Assembly (NCBI GenBank): GCA_024645245.1
Contig: JAHEBN010000025.1
Location: 1 to 33,212 of the forward strand
Source: Jiulongibacter sp.
Lineage (GTDB): Bacteria > Bacteroidota > Bacteroidia > Cytophagales > Spirosomataceae
Direction: 5' to 3'
Length of the DNA: 33,212 nt
The number at the start of each line of letters is the position of its first letter. The first letter of the stretch is position 1. Made by a program: the position numbers and the translations under genes. Below, piece after piece: positions 6,988-33,212 of this stretch. The notes under the pieces are model-generated. The model made no database searches. It saw only the letters and a list, made by a program, of their open reading frames with translations, and was not told where the DNA came from.

Positions 6988-7871
6988 TGAATAGAAGAAC
7001 CATTCTAAAGGCCGGAATTGCCTCTTTTGCAGGTATGTATAATTTGGATTTTAAAAGGCCAAATAAGAAATATTGCTTCAATACACTATCGTGCCCCGAC
7101 TGGACTTGGGAAGAAATTATATTAAATGCCCAAAAAATGGGTTTCTCGGCGGTGGAGGTTCGGGGAATCGGTGCTGAAATTGATTTGAGGAAGTGTCAGG
7201 CTTTTTCGCCTGCAAATATTTTATCTTCTAAAAAAATCGCCGGGGAAAATGGAATTAAGATACTTAATCTCAATAGCTCCGCACATTTACACGAAACAGA
7301 AATTGTGGCAAAGAATAAAAATCTGGATGAGGTAAAAGCCTATATTGACTTGGCGGTGCAATTGGGTAGTGATTTTGTTCGTGTTTTTCCTGAAAAATTT
7401 GTTTTTGAAAATGAAAAGCAAAAATCCATTGATCTGTTAATTGAAAACCTGGGATTGCTCACGCAATATGCGAATGGAAGTGGAGTGAAAGTGCTTCTGG
7501 ACGCACATGGAGACCTGGTTTGGTCGGCTGATATTCAATATATTATGGAAAATTCGGATCGGGATAATTCAGGCGTAATCTGGGATTATTTTAATATGCA
7601 TTTAAAAACTGGAGAAACTCCTGAGAAAATGCATTCCACACTTAAAGATTACATCAAAATAATTCAGATTAAAGATGGGTTCTTTTTGCCTGACAAAAAA
7701 TATGAATACTGCCTCACAGGAAAAGGGGAGGTGCCTATCAGCAAAATTCTGGAGTTGGCTAAAAAGGATAAATTTGCCGGCTATATCAGTTTTGAATGGG
7801 AAAAACGCTGGCACCCTGAATTACCAAATCCGGAAATTGCCTTGCCTCAATTTATGAAATTTATGAGTTGA
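6987..7871 (+). CDS. sugar phosphate isomerase/epimerase-type TIM-barrel protein with Tat-like signal
   Basis: The 294-residue protein belongs to the xylose isomerase-like TIM-barrel superfamily (AP endonuclease 2 fold). Its start MNRRTILKAGIASFAG carries a twin-arginine motif with a short hydrophobic stretch, so export by Tat is likely. Barrel signatures include GFSAVEVRG (53-60), GSDFVRVFP (127-135), VKVLLDAHGD (168-176, candidate ligands D172/H174), WDYFNMH (199-205), IQIKDG (226-231) and GYISFEWE (265-272, candidate ligand E270). The usual Glu of strand 5 appears replaced by Asp, so metal binding needs checking. The ATG at 6987 lies directly after a terminator U-run; the next in-frame ATG (residue 17) would lose the signal. 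The 3' end overlaps the convergent LytTR gene by 11 bp. Confidence 0.8.
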   Translation: MNRRTILKAGIASFAGMYNLDFKRPNKKYCFNTLSCPDWTWEEIILNAQKMGFSAVEVRGIGAEIDLRKCQAFSPANILSSKKIAGENGIKILNLNSSAHLHETEIVAKNKNLDEVKAYIDLAVQLGSDFVRVFPEKFVFENEKQKSIDLLIENLGLLTQYANGSGVKVLLDAHGDLVWSADIQYIMENSDRDNSGVIWDYFNMHLKTGETPEKMHSTLKDYIKIIQIKDGFFLPDKKYEYCLTGKGEVPISKILELAKKDKFAGYISFEWEKRWHPELPNPEIALPQFMKFMS

Positions 7872-8247
7872 TTTCCTGATCAACAACCGGACGTATATTA
7901 TACATGTTTTTAAAAACCGTTTTAAAGCTTTTGTTTTTTCTTCTGGAGACTAGAAAGCTTTTATCTCTGAAAAAAATCATCTTATCTGTCAAAGAAAATT
8001 CCTGAGTGAAAAACAGATCTACATTGATGATGTACTTCCGGTTTATGCGGATAAAATTTGGCTTGGTGATTAGTCTTTCACCCAGTTTAGCAAGGGATGT
8101 TGAAACAAAGACCTTTTCCCCGCTTCTAAAAAAAATGTGGGTATATGAACCCTGTGCCTCCATTAAAGCAATATCTTCAAAATCGGCAATTTTCCAACTT
8201 CCTATGTGAATTGAACGCGATTGTTCTAATTCTTTTATTTTTTTCAT
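7861..8247 (-). CDS. stand-alone LytTR DNA-binding protein
   Basis: Almost the whole 128-residue protein is one LytTR domain (about residues 13-110). The pattern IALMEAQGSYTHIFFRSGEKVFVSTSL, followed by FIRINRKYIINVD, is the usual LytTR strand pattern; the latter segment recognises DNA. There is no receiver domain, so control must come from the gene's expression level or from a partner. Its tail is convergent with, and overlaps by 11 bp, the TIM-barrel gene. It lies downstream of the two-component operon on the same strand, 178 bp away, with its own possible -7 box. Targets are unknown. Confidence 0.88.
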   Translation of the reverse strand: MKKIKELEQSRSIHIGSWKIADFEDIALMEAQGSYTHIFFRSGEKVFVSTSLAKLGERLITKPNFIRINRKYIINVDLFFTQEFSLTDKMIFFRDKSFLVSRRKNKSFKTVFKNMYNIRPVVDQEINS

Positions 8248-8425: not shown

Positions 8426-10369
8426 TCAAAGCTTAAAATGTATAGAATATAAGCTTTTCGTAAATTTTATGGAGGTTCCTTCGGGGCTGCTATTTATTTC
8501 TAATACACCACCTATTTCTAAGGCTCTGGACTTCATATTATTCAAACCAAAAGAATTCTGAGAATTAGATTCAGCGGAACTGAAACCTATACCATTATCT
8601 ATTATTTCAAGGGTCAAATTTTCTTTTTGAAAATTACCGGATATTATTACTAAAGTTGCTTTTGCGTATTTCTGCACATTATTGAAGGCTTCCTGAACAA
8701 TTCTGAAGAGATTTAAACCTTCTATGGGGTTCAGAACTAAATCGTCACCCTTGAAATGAATTTCTGTTTTGAAAGAATTTCCAACTTCAAATTTTTTTAT
8801 AAACTCCTGTATTCGGGATTTCAGATCACTTGCTGTTATTTCCGAATTATAAGTCGCCCATATGGTATCGCGAAGACTTTGAGCCGCGAGCCTCACCTCA
8901 CCTGAAATGTTTTCCAGTTTTGCTGAAACCAACTGTTTGTTTTCAAAAAGATAAAAGGCGTTGTCTAAACTGGTGCTCACTACTGTCAATTGGGAGCCAA
9001 CACTGTCGTGCAACTCTTTGGCAATTCGTTGCCGTTCAATTTCGCGGGCTGAGATTAATTTTTTCTGGTTTTCTATTTCAAAATTTTTCAATCTTTCCGT
9101 TTCTGCAGCTTTATTTTTGATATTTCTGATTCTCCAGAATAAAGTACCGGCAACTGAAATGATTATCAAGCCCATAGCCATGCCAATAATCCAATTTTTT
9201 TTTTGAGCAATTTCTAATTTTGCTTCCCTGAGTTGGGCTTCTTTTTCAGCATTTTTATATTTGGCATCAAATCCCGCCAAAAGTTCATTGCTTTCCTGAG
9301 TATAAAGGGAGTCACGCATTTGCAGTATCAGTTTCTGATACCTATCCCCTTCGGCAAAATCGTTTTTTACATAGTAAAGCCGTTCTAATGTATAATAACT
9401 TTTAATGATATCACTGTCGCTTTTAAACTCTTTCGCAAGTTCAAGTGATTTTTTCAGGTATTTTTCAGCCGGAATCAGCCTTTTTTGCTCGGTATAAAGC
9501 ATTCCTAAAAACCGGGATGATGTAAGTTGATTCCAGGTGTCGTTAATGGTATCCTGAATATGATAAGCCTCAAGCAAAGGTTTTTCGGCTTTTTCACTTG
9601 CATTTAGGCGTCTGTAAAGATTTCCTCCAGTAGCTAAATAGTTAGCATATTCAGAAAATTTGTTCTGTTTTTTGTAAAATTCGGCGGCAGCGAGATAGAT
9701 ATTTTGAGCCTCCTGATAATTCCCTTGTGCAATGTGGTTGTTTGCTATATTGACATTTATACCAAATGCCCGGTCGTTTAACTTTTCTTTTTTGGCCAAA
9801 TCAATGGCTTGTTGGTTGTACTGATTGGATAATTTATAATTGCCCATATAATGATATAGCCAGCCCAGGTATTCTAATGAATTAATTTCGTAGGGTTTGT
9901 TTTTAATTTGACGTGCTAATTCCAGGGAGCGAACAAGGTGTTTTTTTGATTCGGGGAAGTTATGGTTTTCATAAAAATTAATACCCGCAATCAAGTTTTG
10001 ATATGAAGCACTTTTGTAATCCTTTATTTTTTCAAAAAGTAATATGGCATTTTGCCGGTAAATTGAAGCGGAATCTTTCGCATGACTATCGTAATGTAAA
10101 TTACTTATTTCAACAGCTGCCAGGGCTTCTCCTTTTGTCCAATTTAACTTTTTTGATACCCTTAAAGCTTCATAAAGCTTTGGTTTTGACAAGTCGTGTT
10201 TTTTGTTCGTGCTATATAAATTAGCTAATGCTAATAAGTTAATTACTTTGGAAGTGTCTGATTTGGATTTGCTTATTACGTTTAGCAAACTATCGGTTTT
10301 TGTGTTTTGAGCAAAAGCTTGCTTAAGGGGAAATAATATTAAAAGAGAATGAAGCAAGAAAATTCTCAT
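8426..10369 (-). CDS. TPR-containing sensor histidine kinase (HisKA_3 type)
   Basis: I choose the ATG at 10369 (647 residues) because it overlaps the response regulator stop as ATGA; a GTG two codons upstream is less likely. Order of parts: signal peptide (1-20), helical TPR repeats over about 35-380 (for example YLGWLYHYMGNYKLSNQYNQQAI), a charged coiled coil, one membrane helix (about 394-413), a second coiled coil, a HisKA_3 dimerisation helix with phospho-acceptor H454 in KELHDSVGSQL, and a HATPase_c domain with N-box QEAFNNVQ and G1 box DNGIGF. The periplasmic TPR part would sense a protein or peptide partner. The kinase should phosphorylate the adjacent NarL-type regulator. A run of ten A in the coding strand lies just before the membrane helix. 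Confidence 0.94.
   Translation of the reverse strand: MRIFLLHSLLILFPLKQAFAQNTKTDSLLNVISKSKSDTSKVINLLALANLYSTNKKHDLSKPKLYEALRVSKKLNWTKGEALAAVEISNLHYDSHAKDSASIYRQNAILLFEKIKDYKSASYQNLIAGINFYENHNFPESKKHLVRSLELARQIKNKPYEINSLEYLGWLYHYMGNYKLSNQYNQQAIDLAKKEKLNDRAFGINVNIANNHIAQGNYQEAQNIYLAAAEFYKKQNKFSEYANYLATGGNLYRRLNASEKAEKPLLEAYHIQDTINDTWNQLTSSRFLGMLYTEQKRLIPAEKYLKKSLELAKEFKSDSDIIKSYYTLERLYYVKNDFAEGDRYQKLILQMRDSLYTQESNELLAGFDAKYKNAEKEAQLREAKLEIAQKKNWIIGMAMGLIIISVAGTLFWRIRNIKNKAAETERLKNFEIENQKKLISAREIERQRIAKELHDSVGSQLTVVSTSLDNAFYLFENKQLVSAKLENISGEVRLAAQSLRDTIWATYNSEITASDLKSRIQEFIKKFEVGNSFKTEIHFKGDDLVLNPIEGLNLFRIVQEAFNNVQKYAKATLVIISGNFQKENLTLEIIDNGIGFSSAESNSQNSFGLNNMKSRALEIGGVLEINSSPEGTSIKFTKSLYSIHFKL
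9195..9204 (-). repeat. A10 homopolymer inside the sensor kinase gene
   Basis: Ten consecutive T on the plus strand read as A10 in the coding strand (codons for Gln-Lys-Lys-Asn before the membrane helix). Runs of this length are prone to slippage during replication or transcription. A one-base shift would remove the membrane anchor and kinase domains. Confidence 0.6.
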
Positions 10370-11028
10370 ACCCACTTATTTTTTTGTGCCATGGCCACAG
10401 CGTCTAATTTAGAATGCACCTGCAGCTTTTGATAAATATTTTCTATGTGTTTTCTGGCTGTTTTAGCTGAAATAAAAAGTTGGTCGGCAATCTGATTATA
10501 GGTGAGACCTGCTGCAATTTTTTCCAGAATTTCAATTTCTCTTTTTGTAAGATTGAAATCGTCCGGGCTTTTATAGACTTCTGTCTTTTGGCCTGCCACT
10601 TCCTGTTTACGAAGTATTTGCAAAGTTTTCATGGCTATTGCAGGTGACATAGGAGCACCGCCTTCCATCAATTCTTCGATAGCCGCTACAATTTTTGACG
10701 GTTTCTCATCTTTGGTAAGATATCCCGAAGCACCGGCTTTTATGGCTTCAAATATTTTATCTTCTCTATCCAGTACGCTAAGCATCATTATTTTGATGTT
10801 CGGGAAAAGCTCTTTTACTCGTCTGGTGGTTTCTATTCCATCCATTTCGGGCATTTCGATATCCAACAGAAGCATGTCCGGATGGTGATTATTGAGCTTA
10901 TTTATGGCATCGTATCCACCATTGGCTTGAAACAATATGCCTATCTCGTCAAATATCGAAAGATTCTGGCTGATATTTCGCAGTAAAGTGGGGTTGTCAT
11001 CTACCAGGCCAATTGTAATCATCGACAT
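10366..11028 (-). CDS. NarL/FixJ-family response regulator (receiver + LuxR HTH)
   Basis: The 220-residue protein has a receiver domain (residues 3-120) with acidic pair D10/D11, phospho-acceptor D56 (LLLDIEMPEMDG), S84 and K106. A LuxR-type helix-turn-helix follows (about 155-216; LTKREIEILEKIAAGLTYNQIADQLFISAKTARKHIENIYQKL). It is transcribed first in a two-gene operon with the sensor kinase, linked by an ATGA overlap that implies translational coupling. A strong promoter match lies just upstream, so close that the leader would be only about 5-8 bases; the ATG at residue 3 is an alternative start. Two palindromes in the divergent spacer are possible binding sites for this protein. Confidence 0.95.
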   Translation of the reverse strand: MSMITIGLVDDNPTLLRNISQNLSIFDEIGILFQANGGYDAINKLNNHHPDMLLLDIEMPEMDGIETTRRVKELFPNIKIMMLSVLDREDKIFEAIKAGASGYLTKDEKPSKIVAAIEELMEGGAPMSPAIAMKTLQILRKQEVAGQKTEVYKSPDDFNLTKREIEILEKIAAGLTYNQIADQLFISAKTARKHIENIYQKLQVHSKLDAVAMAQKNKWV

Positions 11029-11208: not shown

Positions 11209-11538
11209 TTGGAAAATCTAAAATTTATCAGAAACATAGAATTGCTGGCGGACGAAATCCTGATGTTTGAGTCTGATGTCAACTATTCTCAGATTTGGTT
11301 AAGCAATGGCAAAAAAGTGATAGTGGCTAAAACGCTAAAGCAAAAATCGGAAATAGTAAAAAATTCTCCTTTTGTGAGGGTCAATCGCCAAATAATGCTC
11401 AATGCCAACTATGTAAAAAGCCTAGGAAATGAACAAACAAAACAAACTGCAGAACTTACCAATGGATTAAAAATCACTTTCTCACGTCGACGAGCTGCTC
11501 AAGCTCACAATGATATTAAAAACTATTTAATTAATTGA
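11209..11538 (+). CDS. stand-alone LytTR DNA-binding protein, TTG start
   Basis: The 109-residue protein is a bare LytTR domain: ADEILMFESDVNYSQIWLSNGKKVIVAKTL (14-43), then FVRVNRQIMLNANYV (55-69) and a basic end FSRRRAAQAHNDI. The frame has no ATG before a stop at 11137-11139. The first internal ATG (residue 19) would cut off the first beta strand, so the TTG at 11209 is the likely start. It is divergent from the two-component operon across a 180-bp spacer with two palindromes. It lies 19 bp upstream of the beta-helix gene and is probably cotranscribed with it. It may regulate that surface protein unit; this is inference. Confidence 0.85.
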   Translation: MENLKFIRNIELLADEILMFESDVNYSQIWLSNGKKVIVAKTLKQKSEIVKNSPFVRVNRQIMLNANYVKSLGNEQTKQTAELTNGLKITFSRRRAAQAHNDIKNYLIN

Positions 11539-31947: not shown

Positions 31948-33108
31948 TTAAGACTCCAAATTCAAATCCCGCCAATTGAAAGTGTTGCAATCGTAACGCA
32001 CGCCCGGCTTCTCTTGAGCGATGTGTATCAGGTTTTTTGATAGGGTGGGGTCAGTGCTTATTTGTTCAAATTTTAGAAGTCCTTCAAATTTATCGCGACT
32101 TAAGGTCTGGCTTGATTTTATTTCGTAAATGGTATTTCCCAGGCTTTTGGGTATTAGTACGTCAATTTCGGTTTGGTGCGATTCTTTCCAAAAATAGAAA
32201 TCGTTGAATTGGTTGGTGTGATAATTTTGTTTTATCATCTCCGCCACCACCAGGTTTTCAAACAAGCTTCCTTTGTTTCTATAATTTTTCACTTCTTTAG
32301 CATTTTTTAGTCCCAGCAATTGGCAAGCCAAGCCGGTATCGTAGAAATACAGCTTTGGACTTTTAATTAATCTCTTATTGTAGTTTTTAAAATAGGGCGG
32401 TAGCCGAAATACCAAGTAAGAGGTTTCTAATATGGAGAGCCAGTTTTTGGCTGTGGTATGGCTTATCCCTGTTTGTTTCGAGATACTGTGGAGGTTTAGC
32501 TCCTGACCGATATGTGTGGCCAATATTCCCAAAAATAATTTAAACTGGGCTTCATTTTGAATATTAATTAACTCATATACATCTCTTTTTACATAGGTGT
32601 CGATGTAATTACGGTAATAAATTTCGGGTTTGAGAGATGGGTTTTTATACAGTTCCGGGTAAAATCCACGGAAAATTTGCTCCCATGGATCGGGGTTTAG
32701 TTGATCTGTAATTTCATTATTCTGGAATGGCAAAAGTCTTAGAATTCCCACTCTGCCCGCCAGACTTTGGGATATATTTCTGGATAGCAGAAAGTTTTGT
32801 GATCCGGAAAGTACAAACTGACCGTTTTTATTGTTTTCGTCTACTATACCTTGCAAATAAGAGAAAAGTTTAGGTACTTTTTGTGCTTCATCAAAAATCA
32901 CCTGGTCATTGTATTCTGCCAAAAATCCTTTGGTGTCATTCTCTGCATATTCAAGAATTTCCGGATTTTCTAAAGATACATACCTGTAGTTTGGCAACGA
33001 CTCTTTCAGGAAGGTTGTTTTGCCTGATTGTCGTGGCCCGGTTAAGGAAACTATACAAAAACTGGTGAGCATTTCATTCCAGGCGTCCTGGATTTTTCTG
33101 GTAATCAT
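31948..33108 (-). CDS. AAA_14 / DUF4143 ATPase
   Basis: The 386-residue protein has the AAA_14 domain (about 15-145) with Walker A GPRQSGKTT (24-32), Walker B QVIFDEAQ (69-76) and sensor LSGSQNFLL. A winged-helix-like region follows (HSISKQTGISHTTAKNWLSILE), then the DUF4143 domain (about 190-340). The last carries GSLFENLVVAEMI ... EIDVLIP ... YEIKSS, which resembles a PD-(D/E)XK nuclease core. Such ATPases are abundant, scattered and often horizontally moved in Bacteroidota; their role is not settled (toxin-antitoxin-like and regulatory roles have been suggested). The reading frame is intact. It lies directly downstream of tandem repeats that may control it. Confidence 0.93.
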   Translation of the reverse strand: MITRKIQDAWNEMLTSFCIVSLTGPRQSGKTTFLKESLPNYRYVSLENPEILEYAENDTKGFLAEYNDQVIFDEAQKVPKLFSYLQGIVDENNKNGQFVLSGSQNFLLSRNISQSLAGRVGILRLLPFQNNEITDQLNPDPWEQIFRGFYPELYKNPSLKPEIYYRNYIDTYVKRDVYELINIQNEAQFKLFLGILATHIGQELNLHSISKQTGISHTTAKNWLSILETSYLVFRLPPYFKNYNKRLIKSPKLYFYDTGLACQLLGLKNAKEVKNYRNKGSLFENLVVAEMIKQNYHTNQFNDFYFWKESHQTEIDVLIPKSLGNTIYEIKSSQTLSRDKFEGLLKFEQISTDPTLSKNLIHIAQEKPGVRYDCNTFNWRDLNLES

Positions 33109-33137
33109 AATTTGCTATTTACCAGACAAATATCGAT

Positions 33138-33212
33138 AAAATATTCAAATTGCACAAGAAAAATATTCAAATTACACTGAAAATATATTTAAATTGCACA
33201 AGAAAAATATTC
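33138..33212. repeat. tandem repeats of 21-23 bp upstream of the ATPase gene
   Basis: Three copies and the start of a fourth follow the unit AAAATATTCAAATTGCACAAG: at 33138-33158, 33160-33179 (ATTACACTG variant), 33180-33202 (with a 2-bp insertion) and 33203-33212, where the window ends. The copies begin 30 bp upstream of the ATPase ATG and repeat at about two helical turns, so they may be operators or iteron-like sites. The array probably continues past the edge. Confidence 0.85.

Follow-up and report, generated by a model that had tools for sequence, protein, structure and literature searches.

A predicted self-operator of 22-bp direct repeats upstream of a PDC-S01 ATPase-nuclease gene

PDC-S01 is listed by PADLOC as a phage defence candidate. 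A 2026 survey, which describes it as a fusion of an ATPase with a PD-(D/E)XK member and identified it through guilt-by-embedding, ranks it fourth by frequency among defences across prokaryotes, most candidates of this kind still awaiting validation; promoters, operators, palindromes and direct repeats are never mentioned in the main text of that survey (PMC12988326). Despite this abundance, neither the function of PDC-S01 nor its silencing is established in the open-access papers searched. A Thermus AAA_14/DUF4143 gene, a distant relative, is upregulated 6.6-fold when a plasmid is present (PMC4406477), an induction that fits a regulated response. Promoter direct repeats that control a phage-defence island have been described together with a separate small repressor, RptR (PMC12255303). 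The site of RptR is the 6-bp TAGCTA, whereas at the locus described here the predicted reader is the ATPase-nuclease itself and the half-site measures 17 bp.

Direct repeats are known both as cooperative operators and as iterons. Iterons with their Rep proteins, and DnaA or Orc1 boxes, are tandem sites of about 22 bp with a winged-helix or AAA+ reader encoded adjacent to them. The present array resembles them in repeating its site about every 22 bp (two turns), a layout that suggests cooperative binding; unlike iterons, its predicted reader lacks a Rep domain and carries a nuclease domain, and the -7 box of the promoter falls in the register of the repeats. That reader belongs to the same family as PDC-S01 (AAA + PD-(D/E)XK, COG1373-like), the gene being a lone one of patchy distribution and often found on plasmids. 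In the open-access literature we found no description of a PDC-S01 self-operator, of its two layouts or of a two-domain code that includes the nuclease domain; the predicted self-operator and the residue-to-base recognition code are what is new here.

The analysed DNA (the window) is the entire 33,212-bp contig C107 of a draft genome of 4.55 Mb in 315 contigs and, because it is one whole contig of a draft assembly, the array is cut by the contig end. Tandem Repeats Finder assigns the array a period of 22 and 3.4 copies, counted inside the contig, with a score of 113; the runner-up in the 33 kb scores 40, and no second array of period 15–60 was detected in the window. The array reaches a direct-repeat score of 27.8, whereas none of 20 dinucleotide shuffles exceeds 9.6. 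The repeat units finish in TTGCACAAG or TTACACTG, and 29 bp separate the array from the start codon (ATG, read as CAT at 33106–33108, - strand), which confirms the original prediction of three or more copies of a 21–23-bp unit with fixed ends close to a start codon. The 22-bp unit is absent elsewhere in the source genome, even with up to three mismatches allowed, and no other contig has it. Half-sites with at most one mismatch are confined to the array; outside it the genome holds 15 scattered half-sites with two mismatches and none with fewer, and these were judged not meaningful as targets in trans.

Table 1. Positions of the predicted operator, the promoter box and the ATPase-nuclease gene with its domains in the window.
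Feature	Position	Strand	Basis or remark
22-bp direct-repeat operator array (predicted), cut by contig end	33138..33212	.	Repeat finding, shuffles
Half-site 1, AATATTCAAATTGCACA (inner to outer)	33140..33156	+	PWM 11.7 bits; exact match
Half-site 2, 22 bp from site 1	33162..33178	+	2 mismatches in 16-base core (33163-33178)
Half-site 3, TATATTTAAATTGCACA	33184..33200	+	PWM 8.8 bits
Fourth half-site, beginning only (contig end)	33206..33212	+	In register with the 22-bp period
-7-like promoter box GATATTTG, beside the last repeat	33127..33134	-	One mismatch to TAnnTTTG
ATPase-nuclease gene, 386 aa, AAA_14 + DUF4143, PDC-S01	31948..33108	-	Pfam, PADLOC
AAA_14 ATPase domain, residues 19-133	32710..33054	-	Walker A GPRQSGKT, Walker B VIFDE intact
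HTH, residues 206-229	32422..32493	-	S216, H217, T218 covary with operator bases 5 and 7
PD-(D/E)XK core, residues 305-331	32116..32196	-	Catalytic E314, D316, E329, K331

The protein encoded next to the array matches AAA_14 (7e-28) and DUF4143 (1e-47) in Pfam, both well over the cut-off, and the PADLOC profile of PDC-S01 over residues 1–357 (1.6e-98); no second DUF4143 gene occurs in the source genome. A PDB sequence search with the protein gave no match, and NCBIfam has no model for it. Its structural model has a pLDDT of 90.2. Residues 1–266 find their best solved folds in the archaeal ATPases PABY2304 (2qen, Z 15.1) and SSO1545 (2fna, Z 13.8), followed by STAND/NB-ARC proteins, with CED-4/NLR folds at a Z of about 12 over residues 1 to about 266, so that the AAA core and the winged helix of a STAND/Orc-like ATPase are both present by fold match. 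The two archaeal proteins share with the window protein the combination of ATPase and winged helix, although the match ends before the PD-(D/E)XK domain and the identity is 16–17%. Because the ATPase part filled the fold match lists of the full model, the nuclease part (residues 262–386) was modelled and searched alone (pLDDT 92.9). It shows the alpha-beta-beta-beta-alpha-beta core with D...ExK typical of the PD-(D/E)XK fold, and its best matches are PD-(D/E)XK nucleases, among them the domains of Can2/Card1 and McrC (Z up to 10.4, with McrC at 9.9), FokI-type nucleases appearing further down. Identity to Can2/Card1 and McrC is 11–14%, and the window protein differs from them in having no CARF domain and in joining its nuclease to an ATPase and an HTH. 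The Walker A and B motifs and the E314-D316-E329-K331 set are conserved across the aligned homologues. Profiles and folds thus bear out a winged-helix HTH and a PD-(D/E)XK domain where a winged-helix-like segment and a nuclease-like domain had been proposed.

The array is a conserved feature of the family. Most of the 29 close homologues from the family of the source organism (44–51% identity) carry a tandem array of period 22 or 23 that ends about 20–50 bp upstream of the start codon, and all 14 homologues from other families of the order have period-22 arrays. Locus DNA totalling 276 kb contains 40 arrays of period 20–24 within 60 bp upstream of an ATPase-nuclease gene (39 loci); only four occur elsewhere, two of them further upstream of such a gene. 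Of 176 full-length homologues, the scoring assigns 45 to arrays and 85 to palindromes; degenerate palindromes are visible in most of those left. ORFs called by a simple rule in the same loci served as controls and gave direct repeats in 3 of 179 cases, one being a divergent neighbour that uses the common array, and palindromes (score of at least 12) in 9 of 179, some of which are probably terminators of the upstream gene. Since the loci were picked by similarity to the window, Bacteroidota dominate the sample. The objections foreseen at the outset, that homologues lack such repeats upstream or that the array is confined to this strain, fail because the upstream regions of the DUF4143 homologues carry repeats, which are not strain-specific; this conservation, together with the shuffles, rules out chance or local duplication as the source of the array. 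In one locus (L011) the array is common to the gene and to a divergent 314-aa ORF (start MKILTFLLTFISLIAMAQPK), and it may control both. A further pair of 21-bp tandem arrays in L129, with 4.7 and 7.9 copies, bears no relation to the operator and lies over 1.3 kb downstream from where the gene starts.

More distant homologues, found in Bacteroidota generally, Treponema, Moraxella, Azotobacter and phage contigs, carry, in place of an array, a single palindrome at the promoter, often adjoining the ATG, with arms that reach 21 bp in Moraxella and 30 bp in L160. Copies on Alphaproteobacteria plasmids (about 31% identity) show direct repeats again: L258, L260, L265, L267 and L269 keep the exact 22-bp spacing of sites in the orientation opposite to that of the Bacteroidota arrays, and 11 of the 13 plasmid loci outscore at least 99 of 100 shuffles. 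The two-turn spacing noticed in the window is therefore kept across phyla, in Bacteroidota and Alphaproteobacteria. A motif model fitted to all upstream regions, with no rule on spacing, yields a 17-bp half-site whose sequence, from the dyad outward, is AATTTTGAATTTGCATA. Direct pairs of this motif are spaced by 22 bp in 103 cases and by 23 bp in 10, and inverted pairs by 18 bp, start to start, in 63, with almost none at other spacings; arrays and palindromes are therefore two arrangements of one and the same half-site, as far as the sequences tell. In the protein tree, 41 of the Cytophagales-type arrays group in a single clade, and one further case stands apart. Some arrays (L130–L137) terminate in an inverted half-site, which therefore connects the two layouts. 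About one quarter of the homologues, many of them on viral contigs or more distant, have no clear site by this motif, in part because their sites are too different for a single model.

The protein that reads the half-site was sought by covariation. Across 133 loci, the divergence of the half-site was compared with that of successive windows along the protein, controlling for the rest of the protein, and the top windows cover residues 209–224, the recognition helix of the HTH. The partial correlation there is 0.37 with 12-residue and 0.40 with 8-residue windows (z 4.2), against 0.21 for the best window elsewhere, and it persists in arrays alone and in palindromes alone. Single residues follow single bases closely. 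Residue 218 pairs with base 5 (Lys with C in 33/33, Pro with T in 58/59, Asn with G in 9/12), residue 217 with base 7 (Gln with G in 41/51, His with C in 15/20, Val with A in 12/12), residue 310 with base 15 (Ser, Asn or Ala with A in 94/95, Lys with C in 19/21) and residue 311 with base 16 (Asn with T in 54/55, His with C in 8/8). An earlier test on the tree that used a coarse residue alphabet gave a weak signal (P 0.003, with T218 not the top column), and a direction-aware co-change scan with null controls was used in its place, covering 36,890 residue-base pairs on a tree built without the HTH columns. Its top six pairs include D216/C5 (1.6e-7), K310/C15 (3e-7) and H217/C7 (1.3e-6), p-values that count parsimony branches among related sequences and are therefore approximate, as well as N218/G5 and N311/T16. 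In nulls made from false operators taken at other upstream positions, or from operators shuffled inside local clades, 0–1 pairs fell below 1e-5, against 8 in the real data, and at most 6 of the top 20 pairs (usually 1–4) fell in the two protein spots, against 10.

In the model of the window protein, residues 216–218 form the start of the recognition helix (217–229) and residues 310–311 the turn that precedes the E314/D316 strand; within the PD-(D/E)XK core, this turn, S310-H311, covaries with operator bases 14–16. A code trained on relatives less than 50% identical predicted base 5 in 94% of cases, base 14 in 93% and base 15 in 91%, compared with 58%, 62% and 65% when the nearest relative was used; the gain holds at base 7 (53% vs 22%) and base 16 (61% vs 27%), where accuracy is moderate. 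The five bases of the window (5, 7 and 14–16) fit the code trained with the window left out. Taken together, the covariation, the base prediction and the placement of the residues make it very likely that the ATPase-nuclease reads its own repeats, a possibility that the original prediction had raised for the ATPase and that the covariation now supports; in this family the operator bases covary with the predicted DNA-contact residues of the protein of the adjacent gene, as befits an autoregulatory operator. The HTH would read the inner part of the half-site and the nuclease domain the outer part, about one turn away. Involvement of a nuclease domain in sequence reading would be unusual for a defence ATPase, and the code could predict operators, and possibly other targets, for tens of thousands of copies.

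The position of the sites relative to the promoter points to their role. The box searched for was the Bacteroidota -7 element, TAnnTTTG, with at most one mismatch, and it is found downstream of the last half-site in 39 of 43 array loci; in 32 of these 39 the distance from the start of that site to the box is 21 or 22 bp, which places the box effectively in the next repeat register. Perfect -7 boxes occur in 32 loci, where shuffles give an expectation of 1.7, and in many palindrome loci the box is at the edge of the palindrome or beside it. The sites thus overlap or abut the promoter with a fixed geometry, and are positioned as an operator. Our preferred reading, which we consider probable, is that the repeats are the ATPase-nuclease's own operator, bound cooperatively by the protein so as to repress its own gene. 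Each 22-bp unit would present one 17-bp half-site to one subunit, which would read it through two surfaces, the recognition helix contacting the inner bases and the turn before the PD-(D/E)XK catalytic strand the outer ones, as the covariation suggests. The two-turn spacing would set neighbouring subunits along the same face of the helix, where the STAND/Orc-like ATPase may assemble cooperatively. Because the promoter-proximal site adjoins the -7 box, occupancy of the sites would switch the gene off, an autorepression of a potentially toxic or costly nuclease. Release might follow, more speculatively, when the protein is titrated by invading DNA or switches its nucleotide state. It is the overlap with the promoter that suggests repression as the sign of regulation, and activation would be possible too; this sign and a role in defence draw on the listing of the family and on one expression study of a distant relative. 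The arrangement suggests an effector that is its own repressor and, with a predicted site before most copies and a code at hand, short DNA oligonucleotides could be used to test binding, regulation and nuclease specificity.

The array-bound protein might instead act as an activator or as a platform for nuclease assembly, a filament on the 22-bp sites recruiting the polymerase or loading the nuclease for use elsewhere. The sites do extend upstream from the promoter, the last one lying at the position of the -33 element as with many activators, and the closest folds include oligomerising STAND ATPases. In many relatives, however, the palindrome covers the transcript start or adjoins the ATG, which is where a repressor would sit, and autoactivation of a nuclease would be risky, so that we regard this reading as unlikely. 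An addition to the self-operator reading is that the operator doubles as the nuclease's address, the PD-(D/E)XK domain nicking or cutting at the half-sites under some condition, for instance an ATP state or an invader that alters the assembly. The idea arises because the turn of the nuclease domain appears to read bases beside the catalytic residues, and we hold it to be rather doubtful. If it were true, one of the most common defence candidates would be a nuclease that silences itself and is addressed by sequence, and its own promoter would disclose the sequence it recognises.

The repeats might also mark one end, or the target, of a mobile element that consists of a single gene and is moved by its ATPase-nuclease product. 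Copies of the gene vary in number between genomes and lie in unrelated flanks, and in several Runella pairs the homology on the left stops near the operator; the Runella copies, 94–97% identical with exchanged flanks, show horizontal movement, as judged by sequence comparison. The right ends, in contrast, are inconsistent, junctions differing from pair to pair and L081 and L139 having 2.3 kb in common past the gene, and no target duplication was seen. In genus g8, of the same family as the source organism, the array-type gene occupies a fixed chromosomal place with upstream DNA conserved across species, and 19 g8 genomes without a close gene mostly retain both flanks there. About ten of these gene-less loci keep a recognisable array of 2–4 sites; L281 and L282 also retain the apparent last codons of the gene, and L283 its 3' half. 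Where the gene is present, the 77 half-sites average 0.38 mismatches; where it is gone, the 32 remaining ones average 1.19. By these comparisons, the g8 gene is one that has been lost repeatedly by deletion, with the array eroding afterwards; the array is therefore tied to the gene, which argues against its being the end of a mobile unit. The suggestion of a mobile unit made in the original prediction is thus not supported: the g8 locus is syntenic and its gene-less forms resemble deletions that leave the array behind, in place of a precise two-ended unit with empty sites, and we consider such an element, or a transposon, very improbable. Orphan 22-bp arrays stand at the syntenic g8 locus in L281–L287, L291 and L295, and in L284 and L287 the orphan array lies directly before the next gene, which could thereby remain under leftover control. 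The PDC-S01 gene of L139 (G162:C48, 943–3481) is itself split by a 2.5 kb insertion, its halves overlapping by 6 bp as from an insertion sequence. A plasmid iteron replication origin was also rejected, the AAA_14/DUF4143 protein having no Rep domain in a Pfam scan and many relatives being chromosomal.

Binding of the operator by a separate host regulator, with the gene merely downstream, would have a precedent in the defence-island promoter repeats bound by the small repressor RptR (PMC12255303); yet no conserved regulator gene adjoins the ATPase-nuclease gene, and the operator tracks residues 216–218 and 310–311 of the ATPase-nuclease even at less than 50% identity, which leaves such a regulator highly improbable. 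Control at the RNA level, with the palindromes as 5'UTR hairpins and the arrays incidental, is hardly credible as a common explanation although many palindromes adjoin the start codon, because the arrays, being upstream of the -7 box, are outside the transcript, and such hairpins cannot form from direct arrays, some palindromes also lying upstream of the box.

Several observations concern the surroundings of the gene. In the window, short ORFs resembling LytTR-type regulators (7861–8247, - strand; 11209–11538, + strand) flank a two-component-like pair (8426–11028, - strand). A homologue in a contig binned as Desulfocapsa (L006, JANTGG010000098.1) is 48% identical to the window protein, as close as those of Bacteroidota, and reflects either a recent transfer or a binning error. 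On a Roseivivax plasmid (L258, 2658–4149) the gene overlaps a restriction endonuclease gene and has qatA, a gene of the Qat anti-phage system, downstream of it. Finally, three distant copies (L085, L086 and L089) have a cas4-like gene downstream, as read from the sequence, which suggests a recurring place beside CRISPR loci.
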